Virus record (IMG/VR): IMGVR_UViG_3300027759_000179
Coordinates: 1 to 39,900 of that record
DNA from: a virus
Direction: 5' to 3' (one strand)
DNA length: 39,900 nt
In this document: positions 16,484-39,900 of the stretch, in pieces
Layout: the number at the start of each line of letters is the position of its first letter
How positions within the stretch are numbered: the stretch's first letter is position 1
Program-made: the position numbers and the translations under genes
The notes under the pieces: model-generated
Told to the model about the DNA's origin: nothing
Seen by the model: the letters and a program-made list of their open reading frames with translations, nothing else
The model's database searches: none

Positions 16484-16839
16484 CAGTCCTCCTCCTCTTC
16501 GTCGTCGTCTTCCATGTCTTCGGCCTGTTCGCTATGTGCGCCCATGCGGGATTCCAGCGCATCAATGCGTTCCATCAGCGCGTCGATCTTGGCGTTCAAG
16601 CTCTTTGGGCTTGTCTCTTCCATCGGCTCGTCGTCCTGTCCTTCCTCGTCGGTGGGATAGCCTCGGTCATCGCGCTTTGCCATTGCCCCACGCATCGGCT
16701 TGCCCATGCCGATCACGACGGTCATGCCCGATTCCTTCATCGGGCTGCTGTCGGACAAGCCCTTCCGCTTGAGCATGGGCTTACGGCCCAGCTTCTTGCC
16801 AAGTTTTGCCAGTACGGCGTCCATGCCTGTCTTCTCCAT
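16483..16839 (-). CDS. Hypothetical protein with basic N-terminus and acidic coiled-coil C-terminus
   Basis: 118 residues. The first 55 are basic and Met/Lys-rich (LGKKLGRKPMLKRKG); residues about 78-98 form a helix with heptad features (LNAKIDALMERIDALESRM); the end is a run of Asp/Glu (EDMEDDDEEEED). It follows terL by three bases. Similar small basic-acidic proteins occur after terminase in other phages without assigned function. Not recognised as a named family. A second in-frame ATG five codons later is an alternative start. Confidence 0.7.
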   Translation of the reverse strand: MEKTGMDAVLAKLGKKLGRKPMLKRKGLSDSSPMKESGMTVVIGMGKPMRGAMAKRDDRGYPTDEEGQDDEPMEETSPKSLNAKIDALMERIDALESRMGAHSEQAEDMEDDDEEEED

Positions 16840-16842
16840 GTC

Positions 16843-18186
16843 TTACCAGCCCGATCCGGGCAGTTGCGATTGGAAGTCCCCTGACGGCTGGAATGACCGA
16901 GCCGATCCATTCTCTGGGGAAACATAGGGGTCGTCGCTGATTTGCCGCAAGCCTACGGGAGCCTCTGGCACCGCCCCCTGCACCCGATCCCAGCCATGCA
17001 GCGCCAACGCCACCGCCATCACGCCGTCGTCGTGGAACCCACTGGGGGCTTCGTAGCGGACTCCGGTGGCCGTATACGTAAACTCAAACGCCTCCATCTC
17101 GCTGGTCAGCCAGCGGGCGTCCTCGGCGTCAGGCAGGGTCAGTTCCTTGCCTTGGAACGCCGCCACCAGCCGCTGCATCAGCCGCAACTTGGACGACTGG
17201 GTGAACACATGAGGCGTGACATTTACGCCCATGGTCTGGAGATCCGCGACGATGGCGTCACCCACCCCCGTCGCGTCGGCCACGATGGGCGTGTCTTCAA
17301 CCTTGGCCTTTATCTTGGCCTTGGTGACGGCCCACGGGGCCTGCCAGCGGTCTAGGTAGGCTACACGGCGGTAGGCATCGAACCCCACCAGCACCGTGAA
17401 GTCCATGCTGCGGGCCAAGTCCACGCCGTAGACCACCACGGGCTGGTCGGACATGGCCCCAAGGCTGGCCCGGATGGCCTCTAAGCCAAAGGGGTTTGCG
17501 CCATCGTCGGTCGGGATGCCTTCAAATTCTTGCGCAAAGACTTCGGGGGGCAACTCTCGACGGGCGGCTTCGACCTCATCGGCGGGGATATACGGGTTTT
17601 CCAGCGTCGAGGCCCGAAAAGACGCCCAGTCCGGGTCTTCCCCTAGTCCACGGTTGAATAACACGACAAATCCGTGTCTGCGGCCCTTGGGAGTGCCTAA
17701 TATCAGCGCCCGACCCCGTAAATCCACCAGTGTGGGACGGATGGCCGCTTGCCAGACCTCTAGCAAATCACGGGCAATACCGGCCTCGTCGATCACCACC
17801 AGCGCATATTTGCGCCCTCGGGCGGCGTCTGGGGTGTCAAGCGTCCAGACTTCGATAATCCCACCCGTCACCAACTCCAGCCGCTTGTCCTGCTCGTTCA
17901 TACGGGCCGTAATCGGGGCCAATCTCTCCACCAACTCCCGCCATGCCTCCAGCGCCAGCTTGTAGGTGGGCGCAAACCAGCCCACTGGCTGTCCCGCAAT
18001 CGCCACATCGCTGGCCTCACGGATGCCACAGGCTGACTTCCCCCAGCGCCGACCACACATGACCACCCTGAACCGTGCAGGGTGAACGGCGATCTTCGCC
18101 TGACCGGGATGCCGCTTGTGGAGACGGACCTCCACCTCCGTAGCGGATGAAGCGCCAGATTTGTGCTTACCACGGACAGAAGCCAC
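16843..18186 (-). CDS. terL: Terminase large subunit (DNA packaging ATPase-nuclease)
   Basis: 447 residues. ATPase domain: Walker A-like CGRRWGKS (44-51) with K50, and Walker B ALVVIDE with D133/E134. Nuclease domain: VVYGVDLARSMDFTVLVGFD with D256, then VADATGVGD (D304) and FHDDGVMAVA (D386/D387), the RNase H-fold acidic set. It translocates DNA into the procapsid through the portal and cuts concatemers. The start is GTG at 18184-18186 with GAGGG about six bases upstream; this start lies inside the first unit of an 8-bp repeat array. Length is normal for the family. Confidence 0.93.
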   Translation of the reverse strand: MASVRGKHKSGASSATEVEVRLHKRHPGQAKIAVHPARFRVVMCGRRWGKSACGIREASDVAIAGQPVGWFAPTYKLALEAWRELVERLAPITARMNEQDKRLELVTGGIIEVWTLDTPDAARGRKYALVVIDEAGIARDLLEVWQAAIRPTLVDLRGRALILGTPKGRRHGFVVLFNRGLGEDPDWASFRASTLENPYIPADEVEAARRELPPEVFAQEFEGIPTDDGANPFGLEAIRASLGAMSDQPVVVYGVDLARSMDFTVLVGFDAYRRVAYLDRWQAPWAVTKAKIKAKVEDTPIVADATGVGDAIVADLQTMGVNVTPHVFTQSSKLRLMQRLVAAFQGKELTLPDAEDARWLTSEMEAFEFTYTATGVRYEAPSGFHDDGVMAVALALHGWDRVQGAVPEAPVGLRQISDDPYVSPENGSARSFQPSGDFQSQLPGSGW

Positions 18187-18348
18187 TCGTTCCCTCGTTA
18201 ACTCGTTTACTCGTTTACGCAGCTACTCGTTCACTCGTTGACGAGTTTACTCGTTCACGTTTACTCGTTCACGTTTACTCGTTCACGTTTACTCGTTCAC
18301 TAAAAAGATACCGTTAGGGTGACTGTAGAGTCACCCCTGACTCCAGAG
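18187..18348. repeat. 8-bp and 14-bp periodic repeat array between terS and terL (candidate packaging site)
   Basis: From 18185 to 18248 the DNA is a strictly 8-bp-phased series of ACTCGTTN-like units (18185, 18193, 18201, 18209, degenerate 18217, 18225, 18233, 18241). It then changes to 3.7 perfect 14-bp copies of ACTCGTTCACGTTT at 18249-18300. A hairpin GGGTGACT/AGTCACCC follows at 18317-18336, then a TGACTC dyad. No ORF of substance is seen. Placement between the terminase genes suggests binding by the small terminase (pac), but this is inference. Confidence 0.85.
18317..18336. repeat. Perfect hairpin GGGTGACT-GTAG-AGTCACCC
   Basis: 8-bp perfect inverted repeat with a 4-base loop, just beyond the terS stop codon. 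Read leftward, T-rich sequence (CTTTTT) follows about 10 bases after the stem, so weak termination between terS and terL is possible. The same TGACTC-type half-sites occur in the replication-initiator gene, favouring a protein-binding site. Confidence 0.6.
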
Positions 18349-18358
18349 TCACCCCCCT
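18338..18358. repeat. 21-bp TGACTCC-AG-AGTCAC dyad, near-copy of the site at 30193-30213
   Basis: Twenty of 21 bases match the sequence at 30193-30213 in the same orientation; only the eighth base differs (A here, T there). It overlaps the terS stop codon. The shared site links the terS-terL gap with the presumed origin in the initiator gene. Confidence 0.8.
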
Positions 18359-18909
18359 GAAGGCAGGGCTGGTAGCGCAAAGAATTGGATGTCCTGCACC
18401 ACCCCACTGACCAGCGCATCCTTCCCCGCTCCACTCAGCGCATGATGGTTCCTGACGGGCGCATCATCCTCGACAATCTTCACCGACAGGGTTTGCGCCC
18501 CTTGATGTTCCACCGTCTGCTTCTCCCCATACTCCACGGGGTTGGCCTTCGCTGCGGCCCATTTCAGCGTCTCAATCAGCACCCGATCCATCGCTGTGGT
18601 ACTACTCGTACTCTCCCGCGCTACCAAGATTGCTTCCTCGGCAAACGCCTGCCCCAGCATCGTCTTCGTCTTCTGATAGCGCTGAAACCACCCCTCCTCT
18701 GCCACAATCCAGCGCCTGACGAGCCCTGCACTCAGCGGCTCACCCAGCGCCGACGATACCGCCTTGACCGTCTCCGACAGCGTATGACCCTCTGCCATGC
18801 CCTCCAGCACCCGCTCCACCACCGCCACCTTCTCGTCCTCGCTCCACTCCCCTCTTTTACTCCGCTTCTCCACCGCTTGCACATCCATCCCACGAATCTT
18901 GCCCCCCAT
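18349..18909 (-). CDS. terS: Terminase small subunit, probable
   Basis: 186 residues from ATG at 18907-18909, chosen because GGGAG lies six bases upstream; a longer reading to 18978 has no ribosome site. The N-terminal part (WSEDEKVAVVERVLEGMAEG, then TLSETVKAVSSALGEPLSAG) is a helix-turn-helix of the kind used by small terminases to bind pac/cos DNA; the middle VRRWIVAEEGWFQRYQKTKT continues this. Residues about 85-120 (ARESTSSTTAMDRVLIETLK, WAAAKANPVEYGEKQTVEH) match the oligomerisation segment of many phage terminase small subunits. It lies directly upstream of terL and the repeat array. Confidence 0.85.
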   Translation of the reverse strand: MGGKIRGMDVQAVEKRSKRGEWSEDEKVAVVERVLEGMAEGHTLSETVKAVSSALGEPLSAGLVRRWIVAEEGWFQRYQKTKTMLGQAFAEEAILVARESTSSTTAMDRVLIETLKWAAAKANPVEYGEKQTVEHQGAQTLSVKIVEDDAPVRNHHALSGAGKDALVSGVVQDIQFFALPALPSGG

Positions 18910-18918
18910 GTGTTCTCC

Positions 18919-18963
18919 CGTTGCTGGTGTTGACACAGCAACGTAGCCTTTTTGTTTTTTTTG
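18919..18963. promoter_or_regulatory. Leader hairpin next to the terS ribosome site; T-tract on the + strand
   Basis: Perfect 8-bp inverted repeat CGTTGCTG/CAGCAACG with a 9-base loop (18919-18943). On the - strand its end abuts the terS Shine-Dalgarno sequence GGGAG, so it could control terS translation. On the + strand it is followed within five bases by a tract of 13 T in 14 (18949-18962), the form of an intrinsic terminator facing right. Either role is inferred. Confidence 0.6.
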
Positions 18964-18990
18964 CGCTAGTCCCCGCACTCGTTCACGCCT

Positions 18991-26758: not shown

Positions 26759-27116
26759 CTAGCCTCCAGATCGTGATGGTTGCGCCAGCGTTTGCTTTGT
26801 CTGGCGTGTCAAACTTCCACCGCTCTTCGCGCACTTGGCTGTCGTCTAGCCAAACACCATTGCCCTGCGTGATCCCGTCCTTGAGATTCTTGCTCCAATT
26901 GAAATCGCGGCGGCGGCGGTCAGGCTCACGGACCAAAACGTACAGCCCCAAGTCAACATCAGCAAGTGCCCACCCAAACATTTTCGCCGCCGCCAGCGAA
27001 AGTTCCCCGATCAGCAGCTTGCTCTGGCGGTACTCCTTGCTGAGGATGTACCCGCTCACAAACTTGCGATTGTCAGAGCAGAGTGCGGCCCACGGGACGG
27101 TAAACGTGAGGATCAA
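26658..27116 (-). CDS. RusA-like Holliday junction resolvase, divergent
   Basis: 152 residues from a TTG start at 27114-27116, chosen because AAGGAG lies five bases upstream and the codon overlaps the primase-helicase stop (TTGA), as in the rest of the operon; a GTG at 27131 lacks a ribosome site. RusA features: the RREPDRRRRDFNWSKNLKDG context is read as VREPDRRRRDFNWSKNLKD at 62-80, then GVWLDDSQVREERW (87-100) with D91/D92. The usual D-x-D-N is D-F-N here, so one metal-binding Asp is missing and activity is uncertain. Expected role: resolving branched replication intermediates. The last 33 residues overlap a small membrane ORF. Confidence 0.72.
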   Translation of the reverse strand: MILTFTVPWAALCSDNRKFVSGYILSKEYRQSKLLIGELSLAAAKMFGWALADVDLGLYVLVREPDRRRRDFNWSKNLKDGITQGNGVWLDDSQVREERWKFDTPDKANAGATITIWRLDDVGNVGVLAASAVRTRRVSTTAVPRRKGARDG

Positions 27117-28858
27117 TTTCTCTCCTTCCACCGGGGGATCATCGGGCCATGCACTTCTTCCGCTTCACGGATGCTGACGGTGCGTTGTGTCAATCGCAAC
27201 GTGCGGAAGTCCCACTGCACAGGTATGTCGCACATCCCGCCAATCCGGTTCTTATCTACGATCAGCCATGTGTCGGCCAAGTTGCCTGACCGTGTAAACC
27301 GCGAGTGGTCGAACAGCAGGACTTGGTGTGAGTCGTTCTCAATGGCACTGCCACCCATCAGCCCTTGACTGATCGGCCTTTCTGCTCTGTTCGCGGAGGT
27401 CTGCCGATTGAACTGTGACAGCGTCACCATCCGCACGTTCAGGCGCTGTGCGAGTTCGCGTAGCTCATGCGAGACGGCTTCGATCCTATCGTGGATGTTG
27501 TTCATGTTGGCTACGCTGGCAAGCTGGAGGTAGTCAATCACGAAGTAGCTGGACCCACTGACCTCGGCGTGATGCTTAATGCAGGCCGACACGTCGGACA
27601 TCTTGGACAACGGGCGGCGGTTGACCAGCACATGGCCTCCCGTCCTCTCCCGAGTCTCGTTAAGTGTTCTGGCCGCTCGCTTGTAGGCGTCTTTGTCAAA
27701 CGCTGGACCCTGTTCCAGCAGTGACACCGACTCCCCACTGACGACTGACATCAGACGGGTCGCCAATTCACTGCGCCCCATCTCCAGCGAGACAAACGTG
27801 ACCACCTCGCCGTGTTCGATAGCGCGAGCCGCCATGTTAATCCCGATCAAGCTCTTGCCCGTGCCCGTGTTCGCGCCGATGGTGACCAACCAACTCTTCG
27901 CAATGCCAACCCCACCACCGCTCGACCCGCACACCTTGTTCCATGCGTCGAGCGGCGTTGGTACGGCATCAACAGGAGCCAGCTTCTCCGTGAGCATCTG
28001 GTCCAGCGTGTCGCCCGTGATTGAATCAAAGGCGACGGCTGGTGGCTCGGCTCCAATCGGCGTGGTAGTGCTAATGATCCCCTGCCACACCGTCGCCCAG
28101 TCATCCCCATGTGACTGCACCGACTGATGCAGATCGCACAGGTCTTTCATCGGCTGGCCGTGGTGCTTCACGTCGCGCAGGATGCGAGCCTTGGGCAACG
28201 ACGCAGAGATCGCCGAGACCATCGTCGCCCCGCCTTCGTCAGGCTCTTGCCACACGATCACCTCACGGCCTGACAACAGGCTGGCATACTCTGGCTTCCA
28301 TTGGCTCGCCCCCGGAAGCCCAACCACCGGGAGGCCACGTTGCCAGCCCGCATGACAGTCACTCTCCCCCTCGACGATCAGCACGGGGCCGGTCGATGCG
28401 GCCAGCACATCCTGCCCGTACAGCGGCGTCCCTTCCCCGTCTCTGTCCCAGAAGGTTCCCTTGCGGGTGCGGCACTTGGTGCGGATGGTGCTGCCATCGG
28501 CACGACGGTAGGGCATGGCAATGATGGCATCGCCAAACTTGCCGGTTCTCTCCTCGACACCCGCCTTCGCCAGTCCTGCCAGCGACAGCCCCTTCCGCTC
28601 GGCGTACTCCTGTAGCGTCAGGCCAGAGGGGGCGGCATCGTCAGGCAGGGTCACCCCCAGCGCCTCACCCAGCGTTGCCAGTGGCTCGGTGAAGCCACAA
28701 GCAGCACAGCCCCATGCATGGTCACCTAGCCACGCACTGCTGGTGCTGTCGTTGTGCCGAGTGCAGCGGAAGGCGATGGCTTTCCCGCTCTTCTTCGCGC
28801 CATGACGGCCACGAAGGAGAGCAGACTTCAACACGCCATGCGCGTCGAGCGAGTTCAT
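27113..28858 (-). CDS. Replicative primase-helicase (CHC2-like zinc finger, Toprim, DnaB-type helicase)
   Basis: 581 residues from ATG 28856-28858, which overlaps the upstream stop (ATGA); a GTG 15 bases earlier is less likely. Zinc-ribbon residues C32, H35, C51, C54; Toprim core IVEGESD (E163, E165, D167) with IVWQEPDEGG as the second acidic motif; hinge about 270-310; helicase domain with Walker A GANTGTGKS (K335), Walker B YFVIDYLQLA (D442), and SQFNRQ (481-486). The layout is that of T7 gp4-type bifunctional proteins. With the adjacent initiator it should start and move the fork, using a host polymerase since none is encoded here. Confidence 0.9.
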   Translation of the reverse strand: MNSLDAHGVLKSALLRGRHGAKKSGKAIAFRCTRHNDSTSSAWLGDHAWGCAACGFTEPLATLGEALGVTLPDDAAPSGLTLQEYAERKGLSLAGLAKAGVEERTGKFGDAIIAMPYRRADGSTIRTKCRTRKGTFWDRDGEGTPLYGQDVLAASTGPVLIVEGESDCHAGWQRGLPVVGLPGASQWKPEYASLLSGREVIVWQEPDEGGATMVSAISASLPKARILRDVKHHGQPMKDLCDLHQSVQSHGDDWATVWQGIISTTTPIGAEPPAVAFDSITGDTLDQMLTEKLAPVDAVPTPLDAWNKVCGSSGGGVGIAKSWLVTIGANTGTGKSLIGINMAARAIEHGEVVTFVSLEMGRSELATRLMSVVSGESVSLLEQGPAFDKDAYKRAARTLNETRERTGGHVLVNRRPLSKMSDVSACIKHHAEVSGSSYFVIDYLQLASVANMNNIHDRIEAVSHELRELAQRLNVRMVTLSQFNRQTSANRAERPISQGLMGGSAIENDSHQVLLFDHSRFTRSGNLADTWLIVDKNRIGGMCDIPVQWDFRTLRLTQRTVSIREAEEVHGPMIPRWKERN

Positions 28859-29091
28859 GAACCGTAGTCCCACAAGCCAGCGTAGTATCCGTCAATCAAC
28901 CCAAACACATACTCGGCGGTGATATGATCGGACGACATCCACTGTGCAGAGTGACGTTCAGAATGCGACATCCAGAGTGACAAAATGTCGTCATCGCTGA
29001 TTGTGCGTAACTGATACGGGTTCATCACGGAGCGGAACTTCGCCACAGTCTCCGCGAATAGTTCAACGTCTTCAGGATCACGCGGCTTCAT
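28855..29091 (-). CDS. Small acidic hypothetical protein (78 aa)
   Basis: MKPRDPEDVELFAETVAKFR onward to GLWDYGS. Mostly helical, acidic, with IDGYYAGLWDYGS at the end. ATG overlaps the upstream stop (ATGA) and its own stop overlaps the primase-helicase ATG, so the three genes are translated as one coupled group. Possibly a helicase-loading accessory from position; no motif supports this. Confidence 0.7.
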   Translation of the reverse strand: MKPRDPEDVELFAETVAKFRSVMNPYQLRTISDDDILSLWMSHSERHSAQWMSSDHITAEYVFGLIDGYYAGLWDYGS

Positions 29092-29645: not shown

Positions 29646-29779
29646 TGACGGTTCCTCCGGTAAGTGTCAAATACGGCCAGCGCCATCATCACAAGGATGA
29701 TCGGAGCGGCGACGGCGACAATCGTCAAAAAGACGATGACTTCTATTCTCAGCAGTGTCTCGATCCATTTCCACATCAT
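29642..29779 (-). CDS. Small membrane protein (45 aa)
   Basis: MMWKWIETLLRIEVIVFLTI then VAVAAPIILVMMALAVFDTY and RRNRQ. One long hydrophobic segment (about 11-36) followed by a basic tail. It fills the 130-base gap between initiator and the 185-residue gene exactly, with ATGA overlaps at both ends. Translation probably depends on coupling, as no strong Shine-Dalgarno sequence is seen. Confidence 0.65.
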   Translation of the reverse strand: MMWKWIETLLRIEVIVFLTIVAVAAPIILVMMALAVFDTYRRNRQ

Positions 29780-30483
29780 GCGGACACCAGCCGGTCAAAC
29801 TCGGCAACGTCCTGACCAGACCGTGCCCACTCTTCACGGGTGCGGCCATACACCAGCACGATCTGCGTGTAGTGTTCCCATGCGCCGTCAGCATAGAACT
29901 TGTGGATCGTCTTCACATAGCGGGGTTCGATCTGTTTGCGACGGACTTCGTCGGCGTACAGGAACGCCGCTGAGATCAGACGGTTGGGTTCAGCGCCGTC
30001 GTCCAGACACTCCGTAATGGCGCGGACAGCAGGAGGGTAGAGGTGTGGCGTATCCCGCTTGGGGTACATATCCCAGATGGAATTACACACGTTCCGTGCA
30101 ACGGCTTTGCTCTCGTTCTGTTTATCGTTCTTCTTATCGTTTGGGTGACTCAACTGAGTCGGGGGTGGGGTGACTCCCATGTCGCCCCCCAGTGACTCCT
30201 GAGTCACCCCCCTCTCGGTCGGTTGCAGCACGACTTCGTAGAGGGTGGTGCGACCGACACGGGGCACCCCACGCAGATAGCCTCGGTCGATCAGCACCGG
30301 CACCGCTCGCTGCACGGTACGGGGGTTCAGGTTGCAAGACTTGGCGAGCGTGTCCACGCTGGCCCAGACGTTGCCACCCAAGCGGTTCGTGAAGGTGCCT
30401 ATGGCACAGAGGACGCGGACTTGGGTGTCGGTCAGGTCAGGATCAGCCACAGCAGCGGCTGGGATAATGCAGAGGTATGACAT
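29776..30483 (-). CDS. Replication initiator / replisome organiser-like protein
   Basis: 235 residues. Residues 15-85 (LTDTQVRVLCAIGTFTNRLG, ASVDTLAKSCNLNPRTVQRA, VPVLIDRGYLRG) form an HTH_36-type winged helix. Residues 91-128 are a polar linker. The C-terminal part (RAITECLDDGAEPNRLISAA to TIHKFYADGAWEHYTQIV) resembles DnaD/DnaT-type C-terminal regions of phage initiators. DNA encoding the linker carries several TGACTC dyads, as the lambda O gene carries its own origin. It lies upstream of the primase-helicase, whose loading it probably directs. The start has no clear Shine-Dalgarno sequence. Confidence 0.8.
   Translation of the reverse strand: MSYLCIIPAAAVADPDLTDTQVRVLCAIGTFTNRLGGNVWASVDTLAKSCNLNPRTVQRAVPVLIDRGYLRGVPRVGRTTLYEVVLQPTERGVTQESLGGDMGVTPPPTQLSHPNDKKNDKQNESKAVARNVCNSIWDMYPKRDTPHLYPPAVRAITECLDDGAEPNRLISAAFLYADEVRRKQIEPRYVKTIHKFYADGAWEHYTQIVLVYGRTREEWARSGQDVAEFDRLVSA
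30143..30213. other. Candidate replication origin: TGACTC dyads inside the initiator gene
   Basis: TGACTC half-sites occur as GGGTGACTC-AA-CTGAGTC (30143-30160), GGGGTGACTC (30167-30176) and GTGACTC-CT-GAGTCAC (30192-30207) followed by CCCCCC. They occupy codons 91-115, the low-complexity linker. The last one is almost identical to 18338-18358. Repeated initiator-binding sites within the initiator gene are known from lambda-type phages; the claim here is inferred. Confidence 0.6.
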
Positions 30484-30506: not shown

Positions 30507-30731
30507 TTACTTCTTATGTCTACTATGGCTTCCTACGTTACACCCTCTCGGTCGAAGAACAACCCCCGACCTTTTCAGAAGGGCATGGACTGCTTGGAAT
30601 GACACGCCAATCCGCACGGACACATCGCGGATAGACAACCCGCTTTCGTACAGCACTCGCACGGTATGGCGACGTTCCTCGTTGGGCATATTCCCAGCGT
30701 GTCGCGCATAGGTTCTTTTGTTAGGTGGCAT
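30507..30731 (-). CDS. Small helix-turn-helix DNA-binding protein (74 aa)
   Basis: MPPNKRTYARHAGNMPNEER onward. The HTH is LSIRDVSVRIGVSFQAVHAL then LKRSGVVLR, with the GVS turn typical of resolvase- and transposase-type HTH domains; the flanks are basic, ending HSRHKK. ATG at 30729-30731 has GGGGAG very close upstream and overlaps the nuclease gene end by 11 bases. It is a candidate regulator for operators in the control regions or a replication accessory. Frame extension to 30830 would overlap the nuclease gene by 110 bases and is rejected. Confidence 0.75.
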   Translation of the reverse strand: MPPNKRTYARHAGNMPNEERRHTVRVLYESGLSIRDVSVRIGVSFQAVHALLKRSGVVLRPRGCNVGSHSRHKK

Positions 30732-31563
30732 TGCTCCCCGCTTTGCGTTGGGCGCAAAACTCCCGAACGTCACAGTAATGTTCGCACCGCTTGAACTCAC
30801 CCGCTCGGACTTCAATGCTGTACTGCTCAAAGTCTACCTCTCCAAATTCACGCGGGTCACTGCTGACACGGGTGGCTCGCTTGGCTCCACGCTTTGTCAG
30901 CGCGTAGCTGTTGCCACTGAACCACCGCTCTTCATCGGTGCAGGGGACTGCCTCGCCCCTACTCGCGGCTTGATGGGCGTAGACCCGTTCGGTGATGTAC
31001 TCCTCGGCGTCTTCCAAACTCCATAGAGGAACAGGAATCGCCTGAATCGCCGCTTGAGGGTACTCAGGATTCCGCTCGGCTTCCGTCTTGCGCCAGTCGC
31101 GGAAGATGCCGACAACCTCCAGCGTATTAATCTCATGGCCGTTCTTGTGTGCTAACCAGCGCAGCACGTTGAGTTGCCGTGTCCATCCATCGCTCCCGTT
31201 TTTCTTGTAGACCGTGGTGACTTTGTAGTCGCTGAGTTTGCCAAGGTCGCAGTGCATCCGGTCCACTTGACCAGACACTTGCCAGCCGTTGACCTCGGCA
31301 TACAACCGCTCTTCCACGACCATACCAGCTTCGCGTAGGCCAGCCCGCTCCAGAATCGTGTGGACGGCTTGCCCAAGCAGCGCCCACACCCGCTCGGAGA
31401 CATCGACGGAGATGTCATCCTTGTGCTTGCCACCCAGCACCCGAATCTGCGGAGCGTCAATCAGCTTGGTGGTGCTGATGTCTCCACCGCCCGTGTAGGG
31501 ATCGTTCTGCACAGCCGCAACAATCGCGGCTGGCAGGTTATGGACGTTTGTCAGCTTGCCCAT
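30721..31563 (-). CDS. PD-(D/E)XK exonuclease with C-terminal Cys cluster (RecB/Cas4-like)
   Basis: 280 residues. Motifs: LGQAVHTILE with H68, EERLYAEV (E85), WQVSGQVDRMH (G-x-x-D, D101), LSDYKVTTVYK with D112/K114, and TRQLNVLRWL (Q130), the full PD-(D/E)XK exonuclease set. The C-terminus has C260-x3-C264-x5-C270, resembling the iron-sulphur cluster end of AddB/Cas4-type nucleases, although the fourth Cys is not obvious (C105 or the Cys in VPCTDEE are candidates). It likely processes DNA ends for recombination, with the SSB-like protein two genes upstream. TAATG overlap with the upstream gene. Confidence 0.85.
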   Translation of the reverse strand: MGKLTNVHNLPAAIVAAVQNDPYTGGGDISTTKLIDAPQIRVLGGKHKDDISVDVSERVWALLGQAVHTILERAGLREAGMVVEERLYAEVNGWQVSGQVDRMHCDLGKLSDYKVTTVYKKNGSDGWTRQLNVLRWLAHKNGHEINTLEVVGIFRDWRKTEAERNPEYPQAAIQAIPVPLWSLEDAEEYITERVYAHQAASRGEAVPCTDEERWFSGNSYALTKRGAKRATRVSSDPREFGEVDFEQYSIEVRAGEFKRCEHYCDVREFCAQRKAGSNAT

Positions 31564-37938: not shown

Positions 37939-39900
37939 TTAAACGCCGGTGTTGTCGTCAGTTGTTGAATAACCACCGCCGGGTTTCGGCTTGATGCCAA
38001 GGTCTGCCAAGATTTGAGCGCGCTTGTTTGCGTCCAGCGGAGCCAAGGTCTGCGCCAGCGTTGCCAAGAACTGATTCTTGTTCTGCGCCGTATCGGCGTT
38101 AAATCGCTTCTCGTCCAACCCGAACTGCTTGTTAAAGCGTTCGGCTGCTGCCTTAATCTCATCGCCAGAAAGCGTTGCCCGCAAATCACGATCAAGCTGA
38201 GACTGCTCCGCTTGGAACTTGTTGCCTGCTGCGGTTTGTCCCGCTTGCCACGTTTGCTGGCCTTCCTGCAACGCTTTGTTTGCGTCAATCTGCGCCAACT
38301 GACGCTGACCGTCAGCGGTGATCTGACCCTCTTGCAACTGCTTTCGCAAGTCGCGTTCAAGCGTAGACTGTCCCGCTTGAAACGTTTGTGAGTCTGTTTG
38401 CAGCGCCTTATTGGCTTCGATCTGCGTCAACTGACGCTTCTCTTCTGAGGTCAACTCGCGGGTCTGCATGGTTTCCCGCAGGCTCCTCTCCAGCGCCGAC
38501 TGCTCTCGGTCAAAGCCGAACTGGCTCTGCTGCATCTGCTGACGCGCAGCGATGTCACTGGCTGACATCCGCTCTCGGCTGGATATCTCGGCGTAGCCCT
38601 GCTGCAACTGCCCACCTTGGTATTCCTTCGTTGCCAAGTCACGGGCTTCCTGCAAGTTGAGCGAGCGGCCTTCCAGTTGCGCTTTCTGCTGCAACTCCTG
38701 TGTCCGCAGCGAGATGTCCGCATCAGCCTGACGGCTCTTGAGGTTCGCCTCAAATGCGCCAAGGTCTTGCTGGCCCGCCATCCCTGCCAGTTCCGACATC
38801 CCTGACAAATACACCTTGCGGTTCTCAGCTTCCGCTTCAGCCTGTTGCTTAAGCAGATCAGCTTCAAACGATGCCGTTGCCCGTGCCTGCTGACCCGCCA
38901 GATCGCCATAGCGGCCACCACCAATGGTCGATGCCGCCAAGCCACGGCGAGCGAGGTCTTCTTCCAACTGCGACCGCTGGGCACCAAACTCTGCGCCCAT
39001 CTCGTCCATCTTGGCTTTCCGCAGGGCCGCATACGACTGCCCTTGAATCTGCGCTTCGTTCTGGCTCAGGTCGTTCAACTGCTGCTCCAGCCGCGCACGG
39101 AGGGCTTGGGCTTGGCTACTCCCACCAAAGGCACCAGACGACTGATACGCAGGAAGCCCTTGCTGTGGTGCGGTGTTTGCCGCAGAAGCCATCTGCTGCT
39201 GCTCGTACTCGCGGTTCGCCTGATCTTGCTGCGCTTGAACCTGCCTGTCCTGCGCTTGCTGGGGCGATCCCTCATAAGCCGCAGCATCTTCAGCCTGTGC
39301 TGCCGCCAGCGCCTCACGCAAGTCTTCTGGAAACGCTTGCCGAATGTCCTGTATAGCGCCAGCATTTGGACGGAATGTGGCGGTTGGAAGACCGTTCTCG
39401 TCTCTCCCATACGAATATGTGTCACCCGCATATGTGGCGCTGCCCGCAGTACCACTGCCACCACTTGGTATGCCACTCAGATCGGAAGTGTCAGCAAAAG
39501 CTCCAGTAATAGAACGGCCACTGGCACCCCACTCAGCCGCTGCCTTATTGATGTTGGCAAGGCTAGTCTCCTGCAAGCCCTTATACCGCTCTCTGGCAGA
39601 AGTCAGTTCCTGTGGCGTGAACTGCCGCTTGGCCGCAGGAGGCTGGACTGGCTGCTGCTGCTGCGGAGCGGGCTGGTTCAACTGGGCACCCAGCGCCGAC
39701 AGCATGGGCGGCTGCTGTGGGGCAGGGGCAGCGGTACTCGCCGCAGGAGCAGGGCGGGCCTGACCCTGCTGCTGCAACTGGGCGAACGTGGGGGTCGTGC
39801 CGGGGGCCAGTCCTTGCTGCGCGACAGGCTTTTTTTGCTGTGGAGGAGCGCCAGCCATCCCACCGCCAGCGTTCCCACCGAAGAGCTGGGTCGTAGGGTT
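37939..39900 (-). CDS. Internal virion (ejection) protein, right-end allele, 5' end beyond window
   Basis: The frame is open to the window edge; by alignment with 1-684 the true ATG lies 33 bases beyond, giving about 664 residues. Parts: Pro/Gln/Ala-rich N-terminal third (variable between the two alleles), a Gln/Ala coiled coil around 270-400, and three long repeats in the C-terminal third, each opening QS-x-LE/DRDLR and containing QIxANKALQ. The end is KPGGGYSTTDDNTGV. The repeats suggest a long helical bundle. It overlaps the gene part at 1-684, which is the other copy of the same N-terminus. Confidence 0.8.
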   Translation of the reverse strand, partial: NPTTQLFGGNAGGGMAGAPPQQKKPVAQQGLAPGTTPTFAQLQQQGQARPAPAASTAAPAPQQPPMLSALGAQLNQPAPQQQQPVQPPAAKRQFTPQELTSARERYKGLQETSLANINKAAAEWGASGRSITGAFADTSDLSGIPSGGSGTAGSATYAGDTYSYGRDENGLPTATFRPNAGAIQDIRQAFPEDLREALAAAQAEDAAAYEGSPQQAQDRQVQAQQDQANREYEQQQMASAANTAPQQGLPAYQSSGAFGGSSQAQALRARLEQQLNDLSQNEAQIQGQSYAALRKAKMDEMGAEFGAQRSQLEEDLARRGLAASTIGGGRYGDLAGQQARATASFEADLLKQQAEAEAENRKVYLSGMSELAGMAGQQDLGAFEANLKSRQADADISLRTQELQQKAQLEGRSLNLQEARDLATKEYQGGQLQQGYAEISSRERMSASDIAARQQMQQSQFGFDREQSALERSLRETMQTRELTSEEKRQLTQIEANKALQTDSQTFQAGQSTLERDLRKQLQEGQITADGQRQLAQIDANKALQEGQQTWQAGQTAAGNKFQAEQSQLDRDLRATLSGDEIKAAAERFNKQFGLDEKRFNADTAQNKNQFLATLAQTLAPLDANKRAQILADLGIKPKPGGGYSTTDDNTGV
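39241..39900. repeat. Divergent direct copy of positions 1-651 (contig-end overlap)
   Basis: The first 60 and last about 90 bases of the overlap are nearly identical; between them there are roughly 35-40 substitutions, one 18-base insertion (near 39630-39665) and one 9-base deletion (near 39733), all keeping the frame. The net length difference is +9. This is the sign of a circular or terminally redundant molecule assembled from two variants; a genuine tandem duplication cannot be excluded from the sequence alone. Confidence 0.85.

Follow-up and report, generated by a model that had tools for sequence, protein, structure and literature searches.

Dyad repeats inside a phage initiator gene and upstream of its terminase gene: a candidate in-gene replication origin and a second putative initiator-binding locus

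The locus considered here raises the question of why the DNA encoding the linker between two domains of a phage replication initiator should be built from repeated inverted half-sites, and whether these half-sites could constitute an origin of replication. The window analysed is the whole stretch of 39,900 nucleotides of the viral record IMGVR_UViG_3300027759_000179, in which the last about 230 bp (39670-39900) repeat positions 412-651, with identity over approximately the last 90 bp before the contig end; this represents either a duplicated gene segment or an assembly that stopped at a repeat. Based on the evidence obtained, the locus is best explained, with a probability that we put at about 0.8, as a lambda-O-like in-gene origin (element A) together with a second initiator-binding locus (element B). 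The features relevant to element A are the following.

29776 to 30483, minus strand: replication initiator gene (235 aa), encoding a winged helix, a disordered linker and a helical C-terminal domain
30118 to 30222, minus strand: predicted disordered linker, codons 88-122 (pLDDT below 50), holding the dyads
30192 to 30207, gene strand: iteron A1, GTGAC-TCAGGA-GTCAC
30170 to 30185, gene strand: iteron A2, GCGAC-ATGGGA-GTCAC, one mismatch
30145 to 30162: iteron A3, CCGAC-TCAGTTGA-GTCAC, N8 form
30108 to 30142, minus strand: 12-bp repeats of the AACGATAAG type past the last iteron, 60% AT (TRF period 12 at 30113-30141)
27113 to 28873, minus strand: primase/DnaB-type helicase (Pfam DnaB_C, 1.5e-32; PHROG 239)

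Assignment of the gene as an initiator is based on the HTH_36 domain at the N-terminus of its protein (Pfam, 3.6e-12; 46.3 bits, cut-off 25) and on the similarity of residues 6-207, hence of both domains, to the PHROG 270 family 'replication initiation protein' (1.6e-13). The match to the O-like family PHROG 391 is confined to the winged helix (residues 15-94, 9.7e-9). The AlphaFold 2 model, used for its domain outline alone given a mean pLDDT of 66 and a pTM of 0.39, comprises a winged helix, a linker of residues 88-122 and a helical C-terminus. The primase/DnaB-type helicase encoded nearby is presumed to be the enzyme loaded at the origin.

The repeat unit of the linker DNA, as defined from relatives, is the dyad GTGAC-N6-GTCAC, sometimes with a spacer of N8. 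The original prediction had taken TGACTC as the half-site, but this hexamer occurs 20 times in the window against 19.9 expected, so that only its clustering is unusual, and the half-site is GTGAC; the palindrome GTGACTC-CT-GAGTCAC named in the prediction is present at 30192-30207. Three dyad units, one every 22-25 bp, are arranged in the order GTGACTCAGGAGTCAC, GCGACATGGGAGTCAC, CCGACTCAGTTGAGTCAC, the distances between their GTCAC starts being 22 and 25 bp, and are followed by CCCAAACGATAAGAAGAACGATAAACAGAACGAG; TRF recovered the 22-bp and 12-bp periods of element A independently. Some 270 nt into the initiator gene, the sites separate the parts encoding the DNA-binding and the C-terminal domain, as in an in-gene origin of the lambda-O type. 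The adjoining AACGA-repeat stretch (30108-30142) is, by its sequence, a candidate unwinding element; the AT content of 60% beside the iterons is within the top 1.3% of 40-bp windows, yet several other sites have a higher AT content. No clear inflection of GC skew, proposed as a mark of the origin, was seen near 30.1 kb.

Does selection in the linker act on the peptide or on the DNA? When the peptide was kept constant and codons were sampled at genome usage, the four AGTCA/TGACT copies observed (mean expectation 0.36) were reached in 2 of 100,000 synonymous shuffles and the three GAC-N6/8-GTC copies (expectation 0.58) in 763 of 100,000. The shuffles are less telling for plain GTGAC/GTCAC (1,871 of 100,000), and the case for constraint on the DNA is thus carried by the reading frames and the comparative evidence. 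The three GTCAC copies occupy three codon frames, both in the window and in the relative L018. In L004, whose protein is 64% identical, the 14-mer AGTCACCCAAACGA is identical but is read in another frame, giving SPKR for SHPND. Across linker codons 104-114, 20 of 30 nucleotides are invariant among five sequences, which exceeds most of the gene. Past the last iteron, each of the 12 relatives examined has CACCC[A/T]AACG and then more AACG copies, mostly at a spacing of 12-13 bp. Within the entire window, GAC-N6/8-GTC is densest at two spots, the linker and a site at 18.32 kb. Relatives that keep the peptide and lose the dyads had been named as the finding that would speak against an origin; the opposite was encountered, in that relatives retain the dyads despite a changed peptide and even a changed reading frame. 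As judged from these sequence comparisons, the constraint on the linker is therefore one on the DNA, and the prediction of an origin in the linker dyads is well supported computationally.

The dyad also recurs in other phages. DNA-only scans for two dyads 22 bp apart returned 23 viral loci, compared to 2 with a scrambled half-site; an 18-bp version returned 53 viral loci, and with a variable gap 115 genome stretches were returned. For 104 of 202 dyad clusters, an ORF lying over the cluster matched a profile seeded with the winged helix of the window; these reduce to at least 81 distinct winged-helix ORFs. In none of these 81 are the dyads upstream of the winged helix, their median position being 112 nt after it, and in 59 of them the dyads use two codon frames; HTH_36 was confirmed by Pfam in 9 of 10 dyad ORFs tested. 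About half of the scanned clusters lie outside winged-helix ORFs, mostly in cellular genomes, so that the dyad alone is not diagnostic of an origin. Of these exceptions, the cellular ones are mostly unrelated repeats, and most of the viral ones are terminase-side elements like element B. In the Bacteroidaceae metagenome-assembled genome RGIG3537 (L098, L106, L121 and other contigs), many dispersed GTGACTTTAAAGTCAC paired elements were observed, which seem to form a repeat family of their own, unrelated to the phage dyads. Two GTGAC dyads are also found in a winged-helix ORF (L170:439-1149) of a contig that is labelled Thermoplasmatales archaeon and is either an archaeal virus or a mis-binned contig.

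Element B, located 11.8 kb from A, consists of the following parts.

18349 to 18978, minus strand: terminase small subunit, terS (Pfam Sf6_terminase, 2.8e-13; PHROG 1482)
18337 to 18352, minus strand: dyad B1, GTGAC-TCTGGA-GTCAG
18319 to 18334, minus strand: dyad B2, GTGAC-TCTACA-GTCAC
18309 to 18318, minus strand: flank CCTAACGGTA past B2, of the CACCC[A/T]AACG type common to A
18185 to 18301, minus strand: AACGAG/AGTAAAC direct-repeat array (plus strand ACTCGTT), period 8/14, spanning the stretch between B and the terL start
16843 to 18186, minus strand: terminase large subunit, terL (PHROG 2, 3e-39)

The original prediction had noted that a 21-bp site recurs with one mismatch, and 30193-30213 indeed recurs at 18338-18358; what lies there is not one dyad, however, but two, and together with a 3' flank and a repeat array they form a second complete element. 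Placed in the 162-bp gap directly upstream of terL, the dyads (18319-18352) are followed by CCCTAACGGTA and by the ACTCGTT (AACGAGT) array that reaches the terL start. The layout is the same in the sibling genome G001 with different spacer letters: between the dyads the window has AGTCACCCCTGACT (18317-18354) and G001 has AGTCAGGGGTGACA (16765-16802), a difference such as an inversion of the central CCCC/GGGG between near-palindromic arms would produce. Among 77 TerL relatives chosen by TerL sequence alone, regardless of B, a dyad with flank is found upstream of terL in 27, or 14 distinct sequences, numbers that overstate the independent cases because the relatives share kinship; shuffling of each region gave the dyad at a rate of 1.2% and the flank at 0.2%. 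Relatives with the element range in TerL identity from 95% down to about 70%. L015, L016 and G039 all keep A with no copy of B upstream of terL, so that B is not required in every genome, and it appears peculiar to the lineage of the studied phage, given that a second remote paired-dyad cluster was present in 0 of 30 unrelated dyad-bearing phage records.

Elements A and B are alike in their dyads, in the CACCC[A/T]AACG flank, in the AACGA-type repeats and in orientation, and their similarity score of 38 was reached in 0 of 2000 shuffles (maximum 28). In L018 both elements have N8 dyads with CAGCTG centres, and in G043 both end in TGACACCC in place of GTCACCC; from these two genomes, on which the statement rests, A and B appear to co-vary. 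Five relatives (L303-L307; genomes G057, G059, G047, G048 and G052) have the C-terminal domain of the initiator without the winged helix, which suggests that the DNA-binding part was exchanged. No winged helix was found in the neighbourhood of these five C-terminal-only homologues, and none of the five has dyads upstream of terL; the initiator-homologue locus was scanned in three of them, two being without dyads and one having a single dyad.

Could the repeats have arisen by chance, or from the codons of a low-complexity linker? TGACTC is not enriched overall and Gly-Val-Thr-Pro codons favour GTCACC, but the idea is contradicted by the synonymous shuffles, the three codon frames and the frame-shifted conservation, and equally by the 81 dyad ORFs and the non-coding copy B, which leaves it with hardly any probability. 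Scarcely better placed, and very improbable, is a reading of the dyads as hairpins in RNA or DNA, be it a terminator, an attenuator or a cruciform, instead of protein sites. Although GGGTGAC...GTCACCC is self-complementary, the half-site letters GAC...GTC are constant and the spacer is variable, which indicates sequence recognition and not pairing; the N6 centre is merely partly palindromic, and the dyads associate with winged-helix genes. No terminator was found at the B dyads, the sole terminator-like match lying elsewhere, and there was no Rfam match.

The dyads might alternatively be operators through which the initiator, or another phage HTH protein, regulates its own gene (A) and terL (B) with no origin involved. 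The position of B directly upstream of terL would suit this, an HTH_58 protein (Pfam) is encoded beside the initiator gene at 30507-30830, and winged helices are common in regulators; a structure search with the initiator gave nothing significant (best E 0.027), the weak winged-helix matches being mostly of regulator type. The A sites, however, are situated well within the gene and not at a promoter, no sigma-70-like promoter was found at B, the lambda-like spacing and AT-richer repeat flank suit an origin better, and PHROG relatives of the initiator are annotated as replication initiation, so that we consider operators unlikely. Somewhat more weight, though still that of a minority view, is due to the proposal that A is an origin while B serves chiefly for packaging, as a pac or cos site, with TerS binding the repeat array and the dyads serving packaging or being secondarily bound by the initiator. 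B lies exactly between terS and terL, its array extends to the terL start, and L287, L291 and L294 have AACGAG-rich DNA there that is free of dyads. Against B being mainly a packaging site stand the dyads, flank and orientation common to A and B, the co-variation of the two elements in two genomes, and the absence of dyads from B where the initiator is without its winged helix.

The in-gene origin with a second initiator-binding locus hence remains the preferred reading, and it is supported by DNA-level conservation, by the association with the winged helix, by the common anatomy of A and B and by their co-variation in two genomes. Element A is, on its sequence features, quite probably bound by its own initiator and used as the replication origin, and binding of the same initiator to B is likely, if slightly less so. 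To account for the mechanism (binding, melting, helicase loading and the role of B), we infer from lambda O and SPP1 gp38 that the winged helix would bind the three GTGAC-N6/8-GTCAC iterons in its own linker DNA, probably as dimers, although a spacer of either N6 or N8 is unexpected for a rigid dimer and speaks against this; the resulting nucleoprotein complex would open the adjoining AACGA-repeat DNA, and the C-terminal domain of the initiator would bring in the phage primase-helicase. B, with its like anatomy of iterons, flank and repeats, would be a second target of the initiator of A, and its most likely role, by analogy with SPP1 oriR and at somewhat less than even odds, may be that of a second origin or a replication-fork barrier aiding the switch to concatemer replication for packaging. 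More tentatively still, the initiator of this lineage might have been recruited to the terminase-side element, so that replication, through fork arrest or a late origin, would be tied to the onset of packaging, with GTGAC-N6-GTCAC as an iteron 'language' common to winged-helix phage initiators of many bacterial phyla. Origins of most environmental phages are unknown, and GTGAC-N6-GTCAC repeats right after a winged helix would locate many of them in uncultured phages; the conserved terminase-side copy offers a testable handle on the handover from replication to packaging, with SPP1 as its principal worked example so far.

Lastly, the two elements can be compared with known systems. The likeness to lambda O and ori-lambda, already drawn in the original prediction, holds for the anatomy: the lambda iterons are hyphenated palindromes that sit within gene O at intervals of 20-24 bp and occupy several codon frames. 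In lambda, a stretch that is AT-rich and purine-rich comes next (PMC7466680, PMC5043065). The two systems differ in that the lambda half-site ATCCCTC/GAGGGA is unrelated and gene O has no GTGAC dyad, that lambda has four iterons and the studied phage three, and that lambda uses a separate loader P whereas a primase-helicase is encoded nearby in the studied phage. Lambda is not known to have a site resembling B. The analogy for B, compared by organisation alone, is with SPP1 gp38, where the in-gene oriL is accompanied by a similarly organised initiator-binding oriR, intergenic and about 12-13 kb off in the late region; B likewise is a late-region copy, 11.8 kb from A. That forks are blocked at oriR and that this leads to concatemer synthesis is, even for SPP1, no more than a proposal (PMC6316719, PMC3485210). 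The surroundings differ, B being placed between the two terminase genes and oriR in a segment that carries three moron genes. Initiators of lactococcal and lactobacillus phages (Leuconostoc phage LLC-1, LJ, CAP, r1t) similarly have repeats in their linker DNA, with the same GTGAC-N6-GTCAC site in LLC-1 and other half-sites in most; LJ and CAP have the GGTATACC type, r1t has GGAACC, and the initiator of Ceridwen has TGAAC-AAAT-GTTCA. GTGAC thus represents one specificity class of a general habit. A literature search did not find the GTGAC dyad as a consensus string, and the exact site is in none of the experimentally studied cases examined, since the dyads are absent from the replication genes of Tuc2009 (including orf16, annotated as containing the origin), TP901-1, r1t and lambda. 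The candidate in-gene phage origin is of an ordinary kind; what is new is a specificity class of wide reach, together with an unusual terminase-side element.
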